From NCBI GenBank assembly GCA_029964075.1, contig CM057149.1, positions 5,900,465 through 5,964,464 on the forward strand: a stretch of DNA of 64,000 nucleotides. The letters run 5' to 3'. The position numbers were made by a program, and so were the translations under genes. How positions within the stretch are numbered: the first letter of the stretch is position 1; each line of letters begins with the position of its first letter. Below the pieces are notes generated by a model, which made no database searches, had not been told where the DNA came from, and saw only the letters and a program-made list of their open reading frames with translations. The DNA is from Patiria pectinifera. Its lineage: Eukaryota; Echinodermata; Asteroidea; Valvatida; Asterinidae. This document shows positions 49,401 to 52,400 of the stretch, piece after piece.

Positions 49401-52400
49401 GGCCAACTGTCCGGAGAAAAAAACAAAATATGTCTACATTTTGGCGCAGATGTGCGAGTGCGATTGCTATCCCCCCCCCCCCCCGACATCAAAAGCTATA
49501 TGCCACTGGTACCGGTACATGGCACACAAACAGTACCTGTACTAGTGTATTCTACCAAATAACTTTGCTTTGAACACACATGCTCTGCTCATTATGAGAC
49601 CTGATTTACATTGATGAATTGTTACGTGCTTGGTATGCATTGTACATGTATATTTATATAACCAGTCTGATGTAGACAGCTTGGGCTTATAATTCAAATG
49701 CTGAATAATGCAAAAATATAGCAGCTGTTCGGATGTAAACAAATAGGATTTTTTTGACATTCTCTCCACGAGTCTAAGACAATGCATGAACTTCTTGTCC
49801 CACCTGGACCTTTAAAATACCGTTACTCAACCATCAATACCACTAAATTTTGGTGATCTCTGAATGAACGTGTACCTTTAATCAGATCGCTTTCAGTTCT
49901 AACCAATGTCATGTGCCACTCATCCATCACACTGTGTTTACACTAAACTCAAAACGTGTAGATGCCATTTCACCCCAGCATGCATCTAAGCTAGATGTAT
50001 GTACAATGTGCCAACGCACCAGCTACGTGAGAATAATTTATATAATGAGCAGTTGTTGTGAACATCTGTGAACGCAGAAATAGTTCAATGCCAACTTCTG
50101 ACGTGAATTGTACTGATGGCATTCACTCTGCTTACATGTAGCTCATGTTAAACTGTATTAGTCCCTTGTGATTTTAACAGTACATGTATGCACGAACTCA
50201 TACATTTAGGTGTATTTCAAAAGTTAGTTAAAGAAAACCTCATCAGGCCATGCAAACAAATGAACCAGTCCCGGCCCGCTTCCTTTTTTTCCTGGCTGTT
50301 TCCTTTTTACTGATCTATTATTATTTTTTTAATTCATAGTAGTTTGTAATATATTTTGCACATGAACATTTATGTACATTGTCAACATATTGTATTTTTT
50401 TTGTTTCCAACACAAGTGTACGGTAGCTATGCAGAAAGGGTAAATGGTACCTTTCAGCACAATTTTATATTTAAGAAAAATAGTTGAAAAGAAAAAAATT
50501 GAAGAAGATGACATCCGCCAACTTGCAAAATCCACCATCTTGGAAAACAAAGGGAAAAAAAAAGCGCCCGCCGTCTTCAGTTTTTCAAAAAGGCCAGACA
50601 AGACAGTACTTATATTTTGTACTCGGCCTAAAGGATATTGCACGATTAGTACTGTTTATGCTAAATACATTAATTACTTAACCATGTTGCAACATCTGTA
50701 ACTTTATCCAGAAAACAATTGCTCAATTGTTACAAGGAAATTATGGTAGCCCGAGATAATTTCAAATTTATGATTTTGTAAAACCATTAACCCTAACCCC
50801 CTAGGCCCTTGTTGCTTACAACCATCCTCAATCCTCCAAAATCCTCCAAAATTTTCCAAAATTTTGCAACTCCGCCTAAATTTTTCAAAATTGTCAGACA
50901 GTCCTGCCTCAAAATGCATTCATCCTCAATCCTCCAAAATCCTCCTCATCCCAAAACTTTGCACTCGTGTTTAAATGAAGGATAACCAACGCCAAATCCT
51001 TCAAAATCATCAGACAGTCCTGCCTCAAAATGCATTCATCCTCAATCCTCCAAAATCCTCTTGTGCTTCAATCACCATTCATCCTCAATCCTCCAAAATC
51101 CTCATGTGCTTCAATCACCATTCATCCTCAATCCTCCAGAATCCTCATTTGATTCAATCACCATTCATCCTCAATCCTCTAGAATCTTCCAAAACTGCCA
51201 GGAGGATTTTGGAGGAGTGAGGTGGGTTAGGGTTAATCAATGGCCGGCTAGAGCTAAGTATGGAAAGGTCAAATCTTTTTGTTGATATATAAAGTAATTA
51301 TTGTGTAGTGAGAGTCCTTCTGAGGCCGCGTCTGTTGTACATACAGGGTGAGTCAAAAAGAAAGTGACCTGGATTAATGATTTTTTTTTCTTGAAAAGCA
51401 ATCAAATGTAATGCCCAAATGAAGTATGTCTTAAAAGAGCATGTTCTTCCACTCATCTGGAAACAAGGAATTACTGAAATTGATCCATGCTTTCAGAAGT
51501 ATATGCATGTTTTACTAAAAGAAGTTGTTTTTATAGCTGTCCATGGAATGTCATTGCAAGCTACCGGTATTGAGCCGAGTGAGAATTATTTAGATTACAC
51601 ACAGGCATTCAAATACAAATGGGATTTTAACTCTTACCACCCCAACTCCATCAAAATCCATCCCCCATTTTGGTGGATTTTTTGGGGACTTGGTCCAGAA
51701 GGCCTGGCATGACTACATATCAATTGATGGAGTATGATGGACTTGGGCCTAATGGCCTGAAGCAGTGCTAGGGGTATCCGATTGATTTTGCCTAGCTTCC
51801 TGTACTGCTGTTGTGATAAAAGCCATGTGTAGCAAGTCCATGAATGTCAACCAGTGCGTCAGTGGTGGATTTCATTTTGTCATGAACAGTTTTGCATTGG
51901 AAGCACAGTGATTGATGGATTTTGATGGACTTGGTCCAGTTCCTAGTAAAAGACACAAGGGAGGTACCGGTAGGGTTAACCATTTGAGTCAAGACTGAAA
52001 CTTCAAGTCCACTCTTTTTTTTCTGAAATATTGATGGCGATTTTTGTCAGTTTTCCTTTGCAAGTTTTCGTTCATTCGTGGAGGTGGGAAAGTGTTTATG
52101 TTTCATTGTATTTACTGAATATTCATCAGTTAATAGACCAGTACTTGAATGATCAGTGGTGGACAGCTGAATTTTGTAATCTTTATATTGAAATAGTCGT
52201 AACTTGGGAATAGGGTATGCAAATTACGAGAAATTTTCACAGCTACTAGTCAATTAATGTACTTTATCCCTGTGATATTTTTATGAAATAGAGCGAGCCG
52301 CATATTTTTTGAAATATTTTGTGTGTGTAATTTGGTCACTTTCCTTTGAACTCACCCTGTGCAATACTTGCCAACTTCCCTACCTGCAATTGCGCATGGT

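Follow-up and report, generated by a model that had tools for sequence, protein, structure and literature searches.

The short TTAA-bounded elements of the window, i.e. the whole stretch of 64,000 nucleotides analysed here (C21:5900465-5964464 of a 613.5-Mb genome), are best explained as piggyBac MITEs whose interior is a retained and partly expanded array of putative transposase recognition motifs, a reading to which we assign a probability of roughly 0.8. The assignment to the piggyBac superfamily is based on features that were tested: ends in the thousands across the genome, insertion at TTAA at one site in comparison with uninserted paralogues, and transposase frames lying between such ends, which together bear out the piggyBac-type source suspected in an earlier sequence-only reading. 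The motif is a predicted transposase site, judged from its place, its asymmetry, its restriction to the ends and published parallels.

Elements of the window and their genomic copies

The sequence-only reading had listed six elements as one family with common ends and varying satellites. All six stretches exist and are bordered by TTAA, and a seventh, older copy at 44791-45018 was missing from that list. Instead of a single family with random satellites, the seven elements represent five types: two copies of family A in opposite orientations, two copies of family B and three further types.

50787..51236 (+), family A MITE, 450 bp; end A, which has the long spacer, to the left; TTAACCCTAACC at both ends
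57221..57567 (-), family A MITE, 347 bp; orientation opposite to 50787
36255..36669 (-), family B MITE, 415 bp; both ends match the autonomous elements L033/L040
53570..53976 (-), family B MITE, 407 bp; end B matches an autonomous element
26574..26888 (+), family C MITE, 315 bp; decay of the right end has left TTAACCCT
51627..51979 (-), family D MITE, 353 bp; ends diverged
44791..45018 (-), family E MITE, 228 bp; end B decayed; absent from the earlier list

The common end form is present without mismatch on both sides only in 50787-51236 and 57221-57567, and the other four listed stretches depart from it. At 53570-53976 the left end is exact and the right end reads TTAACCCTAATT, and at 26574-26888 the left end is exact and the right side retains only the remnant given above. 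The left and right ends are TTAACCTTAACC and TTAACCCTAACT at 36255-36669, and TTAACTCTTACC and TTAACCCTACCG at 51627-51979. One further end, at 10418, stands alone with no partner seen, and neither Rfam (at gathering scores) nor ARAGORN returned anything in the window. All but one of the elements had been placed in introns of active-looking genes; the comparison made here covers 50787-51236 and 51627-51979, which lie between exon-like motifs at about 53412 and about 48893 on the minus strand. We take these motifs to be those of a p38 MAP kinase, and the exon-like frames at 28255-33661 presumably resemble a class II CPD photolyase gene.

Genome-wide, TTAACCCTAACC occurs 6,645 times against 192 for the reversed control, and the facing pair TTAACCCTAACC...GGTTAGGGTTAA at 304-334 bp is found at 105 places against 0. 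Exact family A ends number 512 for end A and 460 for end B (controls 0). The tip is common to two or more large families, among them family A and a family F, which has the motif TGCCAAACGCAGCAACATGCAAC and was not seen in the window. Eleven family A copies, the places of this family among the matches listed, were fetched together with the first nine family F places there; ignoring gaps, median pairwise identity is 0.98 (0.879-0.994) for A and 0.90 (0.867-0.994) for F. All 20 fetched copies are 304-334 bp long because they were drawn from the facing pairs at that distance. Being short, non-coding, present in many copies and inverted at their ends, the elements have the traits of MITEs. Among viral contigs, where records of the host genome were possibly left out, CTCAATCCTCCAAAATCCTC has no exact match.

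An alignment of 50787-51236 took in 57221-57567 and a further 11 copies from the genome; compared with the 324-bp copies, 57221-57567 has one 10-bp unit fewer and an array that is 33 bp longer. On C1-C5, where exact ends number 97 for end A and 90 for end B, 60 pairs could be formed, a count of family A copies with exact ends in which mutated-end copies go uncounted. The mode is 440 bp (15 copies), followed by 397 (6), by 324, 420, 441 and 450 (3 each) and by 526 (2). These lengths are related in steps: 397 is 440 - 43, 450 is 440 + 10, 526 is 440 + 86, 324 is 440 - 116 and 420 is 440 - 20. Paired lengths of 904, 1,739 and 6,800 may reflect nested insertions or wrongly paired ends.

Ends, insertion at TTAA and the telomere-like tip

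In the window, 17 matches to TTAACCCTAACC with up to two mismatches were found, compared with a mean of 5.55 and a maximum of 12 in shuffled sequences. Facing pairs of TTAACCCTA/TAGGGTTAA at 150-600 bp occur three times and in none of 100 simulated sequences. The ends of the family A element at 50787-51236 are:

50787..50799 (+), left terminal inverted repeat, 13 bp including TTAA, TTAACCCTAACCC, 100% complementary
51224..51236 (+), right terminal inverted repeat, pairing with the left repeat 50787..50799
50824..50846 (+), outermost motif copy at end A, the end with the long spacer
51202..51224 (-), outermost motif copy at end B, where the spacer is short, adjoining the terminal repeat

A 28-nt subterminal pair of this element is 89% complementary. 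Its single-strand DNA fold is more stable than that of shuffled sequences (z -3.92), which is not read as function since inverted ends alone would yield such stability. The contiguous terminal repeat without TTAA measures 9 bp in 50787-51236 and in the autonomous element L032, 7 bp in L033 and 10 bp in L036, or 11-14 bp in these four when TTAA is included. CCCT follows TTAA at both ends of L032, L033, L036, L040, 50787-51236 and 57221-57567. Without TTAA, the repeats are thus shorter than the 12-19 bp that a study of coral MITEs gives as general for piggyBac terminal inverted repeats, with shorter-repeat families also described; its terminal motif for the superfamily is CC[C/T]T (PMC2872659).

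Once the elements are oriented, their ends align, those of end B in 26574-26888 and 44791-45018 only partly. At end B, TTAACCCTAACCC is followed by the motif within a few bases; at end A, the same terminal repeat is followed by a spacer and then by the motif, about 24 bp further in. The first motif lies at bp 15 (end B) and 39 (end A) in L032, at 17 and 41 in L033, and at 18 and 42 in L036, where the end A match is at the 5-mismatch limit; the offset is 24 bp each time. The end A spacer contains CTAG in 7/7 window copies and lacks it in L032, L033, L034 and L036.

Insertion at TTAA is documented by locus L006, in which a family A copy sits within a family B MITE. When its flanks are joined, they match the family B element at 36255-36669 with 86% over 140 bp, across the junction, and they also match 53570-53976 and L052, so that three uninserted paralogues are available in total. 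The junction reads GCC-TTAA-TCC in the inserted copy and GCC-TCAA-TCC in the three paralogues. In the simplest reading, the host copy at L006 would have had a TTAA that was used and duplicated at insertion; the comparators are paralogues, as distinct from the same locus before insertion, and this is one empty site in all. Matches to the flanks of L007, L009, L011, L012, L015 and L023 stop short of the insertion point, and these loci were rejected as empty sites. TTAA flanks all 20 fetched copies, which is little evidence because the copies were selected by exact ends. Two elements with one common TTAA occur in L010, where a relative of the family E copy 44791-45018 adjoins a family A MITE, and in L014 and L054; the exact junction GGTTAGGGTTAACCCTAACC is found at 13 places (control 0). 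At positions 633-636 of L054, a single TTAA is common to two L033-family elements arranged head to tail.

The ends had also been said to mimic telomere repeats. In terms of letters this stands, as TAACCCTAACCC inside the end amounts to two telomere units; the end is, however, common to a transposase clade, and sampled telomere tracts are a different repeat. An origin of the ends from telomere tracts in interstitial position, or from breaks healed by telomerase, is accordingly extremely improbable, even though the telomere-register string CTAACCCTAACC is common in the genome, with 5,140 hits (control 97) in which overlapping registers of one tract are counted repeatedly; among the matches listed, most are runs of overlapping registers. 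The ends comprise two telomere units and then stop, with TTAA outside, unlike a continuous TTAGGG tract, which has no TTAA boundary. They face each other at repeated distances, with a flanking duplicated TTAA, and they flank transposase frames. Furthermore, 12 of 12 telomere runs drawn from the matches listed, within the first 2.6 Mb of C1, proved to be one other dispersed repeat, 87-99.7% identical. The telomere-like ends are most likely a coincidence, the two units being explained by a site shared through one transposase clade. Empty sites and end frequency, the checks proposed with the sequence-only reading, were run in part: one empty site was found, TTAACCCTAACC occurs 6,645 times against the 5,140 repeatedly counted telomere-register hits, and the element stands.

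As an observation in its own right, twelve places on C1 (L057-L068) carry copies of a dispersed repeat, 340 bp or longer, with 18-30 bp of exact telomere units in mid-repeat, which may account for many of the telomere-register hits. ARAGORN found no tRNA at the six of these places to which it was applied.

Autonomous relatives and the subterminal motif array

Matches to the Pfam family DDE_Tnp_1_7 number at least 110 in the genome, and 30 transposase loci were fetched. Both ends of the type described above surround open frames of 826 (L032), 817 (L033) and 828 codons (L040), measured from stop to stop. L036 has an 800-codon frame, with both ends present once the neighbouring stretch L055 is added. 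L034, L035, L039, L042 and L054 carry at least one such end each in the stretches fetched, counting neighbours' ends in L034 and L054. The DDE_Tnp_1_7 domain was detected in all three proteins scanned (L040, L032 and L036), and zf-Tnp_2 exceeded its cut-off in two of them (L040, 25.0 vs 24; L032, 30.4); the Pfam scan of L036 reported no zinc finger. L040 aligns with piggyBac (6x67) at E 7e-30 and with piggyBat (9c0f) at E 3.2e-27, and only the piggyBat alignment continues through the zinc-finger domain, the piggyBac alignment ending before it. For L032, neither alignment extends to that domain. In L040, the protein in which the aspartates were looked up, D stands opposite D268, D346 and D447 of 6x67, the active-site residues of piggyBac according to the available part of its structural description (PMC7351741).

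The transposase tree covers 22 of the 30 proteins, namely those longer than 430 residues when counted from the first Met. In it, the eight end-bearing transposases group in a single clade of nine rows (support 98/95), which L047 completes; since the stretch around L047 shows no such end, the end label needs two changes rather than one. In the sister group, L038 and L046 lack matching TTAA ends in the stretches examined, and outside the clade one end-like string each (up to two mismatches) occurs in L037 and L052. Family B ends match L033/L040, with 53570-53976 matching L040 at 88% over 76 bp (end B) and, in a second stretch of 141 bp, at 72%. For family A, the match to the autonomous sequences is 69% over 215 bp towards end B. 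When compared with six autonomous or part-autonomous sequences, family C gave one partial match and families D and E none. No autonomous element bearing exact ends of family A was found, and on C1-C5 the nearest of at least 21 transposase matches lies 12.8 kb from any of the 97 exact end-A places.

Animals have Helitron-like elements with tandem repeats at their centre, so another group with minisatellite-bearing non-autonomous copies had to be weighed as well. This has a negligible probability given the inverted ends, the TTAA duplication and the piggyBac transposases between such ends; to our knowledge, Helitrons have none of the three.

Two further observations concern other piggyBac-type sequences of the genome. 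L025 (C4) and L026 (C17) are near-identical piggyBac elements outside the clade, with ends TTAACCCTTTGCA and open 612-codon frames; such near-identity on different chromosomes is a sign of recent activity. On a small contig (G000 C420:9071-14799), fragments of a piggyBac-type transposase recur at steps of roughly 1.3 kb, as if a piece of transposase had been absorbed into a tandem array.

The motif recurs in the interior of the MITEs. With up to three mismatches, ATCCTCAATCCTCCAAAATCCTC has 19 matches in the window (expected 0.00), 19/19 of which lie inside elements, and the looser motif TCCNNCAAAATCC has 15/15 matches inside the seven elements, which occupy 3.9% of the window. The arrays of family A are:

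51033..51186 (+), 43-bp motif array, 3.6 copies, the earlier 'minisatellite'
57268..57457 (-), 43-bp motif array, 4.4 copies
50830..50862 (+), 3.3 copies of a 10-bp repeat where the first motif lies, interpreted as half-sites

In autonomous elements, copies of the roughly 20-bp motif were counted with named motifs and up to five mismatches, which replaced automatic motif counts that had returned runs of N and, for L033 and L040, poly-T. All copies lie within 400 bp of the ends (12/12 in L032, 9/9 in L033 and 9/9 in L040; shuffled means 0-0.1); L036 has only two matches, one at the 5-mismatch limit. The sites of L033 lie 17, 46, 89, 132, 176 and 219 bp from end B and 41, 91 and 137 bp from end A, with 5/7 neighbour distances of 41-46 bp. 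Those of L032, the motif of which is unlike that of L033, lie at 15, 53, 98, 141 and 185 from end B and at 39, 80, 104, 167, 191, 232 and 273 from end A, with 6/10 distances in this range. Among the MITEs, a 324-bp family A copy (L005) has sites at 121, 164, 207 and 250, and family C at 137, 180, 222 and 266, 4/5 motif copies of 26574-26888 being spaced 42-44 bp. On the basis of these positions, the 43-bp 'minisatellite' of the MITEs corresponds to the spacing of the autonomous arrays. The sequence-only reading had the elements carry and expand a satellite cargo: the number of internal units does vary, mostly by steps among which are 43 and 10 bp, but the 'cargo' is better read as the elements' own subterminal array because the autonomous relatives have such a motif at similar spacing.

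The letters of the motif vary between families and agree between both ends of one family, its position remaining constant. Since the first motifs had been chosen by eye (identity at a lag of 10 bp, 78/114), the count was redone at fixed positions: letters 10 apart are equal in 121/238 cases over 14 ends that are partly non-independent and at positions picked after the motif had been seen, and no lag in 2,000 shuffles reaches 121. With four lineages, each counted once, 33/68 letters are equal at lag 10, again the highest lag. Judged from these letters, the motif looks like two half-sites in direct orientation, one helix turn apart.

The elements could also be piggyBac MITEs whose internal repeats are ordinary minisatellites, grown by slippage and with no role in transposition. 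Unit number differs between copies and the window holds other minisatellites (e.g. 21466-22328), as this would have it, and equal spacing within one MITE can arise by duplication alone. Against it, the unit is the subterminal motif, found at both ends of autonomous elements and absent from their middle, and the unlike motifs of other families start at the same places with similar spacing. Such shared spacing would argue for constraint, few families standing behind the argument, and we consider ordinary minisatellites unlikely. Given the asymmetric ends with motif copies continuing inward, the MITE interior would be a recognition array left over once the coding part had been lost.

Predicted mechanism and comparison with known systems

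A transposase supplied from elsewhere in the genome would recognise the terminal repeat TTAACCCTAACCC together with the subterminal motif of about 20 bp, probably binding the latter through its C-terminal zinc-finger domain. It would then join both ends, excise the element and insert it at a TTAA, which is thereby duplicated. Further motif copies lie inward of these, often 41-46 bp (about four helix turns) apart, a spacing that may serve side-by-side binding. Units may be gained or lost as 43 bp (motif and linker), as 10 bp (half a motif) or in some larger steps, presumably through slippage or unequal exchange.

The closest parallel is piggyBat of Myotis lucifugus (9c0f), the left end of which has transposase sites at bp 11, 55 and 99 in the excerpted account, the third site limiting activity (PMC11707139). 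This 44-bp period resembles the 43-bp period found here. As far as the same excerpt goes, three sites lie at one end of piggyBat, in contrast to its right end, whereas here the motif is present at both ends, seven being the largest number of copies at a single end (L032); the piggyBat site is an imperfect palindrome and the motif here resembles a 10-bp direct repeat (PMC11707139). The piggyBac element of Trichoplusia ni (6x67) likewise has a TTAA target, asymmetric ends and catalytic aspartates that align with those found here, and its ends share an internal repeat of 19 bp to which the zinc-finger domain binds, although in a different layout (PMC7351741). This repeat is palindrome-like, and the portion of the paper available describes no long inner array, unlike the situation here (PMC7351741). 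Coral CMITEs are also small TTAA-flanked piggyBac-type MITEs with shared internal sequence and reported tandem copies; in contrast to the present elements, they measure about 100 bp and have one conserved 75-base interior of unknown origin, with no motif array described in the excerpt (PMC2872659). Within literature titles and abstract openings, no piggyBac MITE with a 43-bp site array was encountered, and TTAACCCTAACC was absent from the ten papers listed out of 65,896.

Several spaced sites per MITE and thousands of ends in the genome allow for a bolder and rather improbable reading, in which the MITE arrays would be selected as decoys that hold transposase and thus damp or steer autonomous copies, as an in-trans counterpart of the inhibitory third site of piggyBat. 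Zinc-finger domain and motif would have diverged jointly, family by family, with the tip fixed and tethering host telomere proteins. The fixed tip contains TTAGGGTTA, which, from the consensus, we take to be a possible site for such proteins.

One genome here offers a natural piggyBac series with an almost invariant tip and a variable subterminal motif. From sequence comparison and binding tests on this series, one could derive how the zinc-finger domain reads DNA. The series would also serve to find out if inner sites in several copies favour or impede transposition, as the piggyBat study leads one to ask (PMC11707139). In addition, the arrays suggest a route by which a minisatellite grows from transposon recognition sites.

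Two other repeats of the window were recorded. At 21335-22328, short CAAGTCCA repeats in opposite orientation, which resemble the family D motif AAGTCCATCA, precede a minisatellite with 73 copies of a 12-bp unit (CTTGTGACTGGA); this could be a much enlarged relative, and matching TTAA ends were not seen there by eye. Two tandem arrays about 2 kb apart, at 60830-60998 and 62779-62853, appear to be inverted copies of one unit of about 16 bp.
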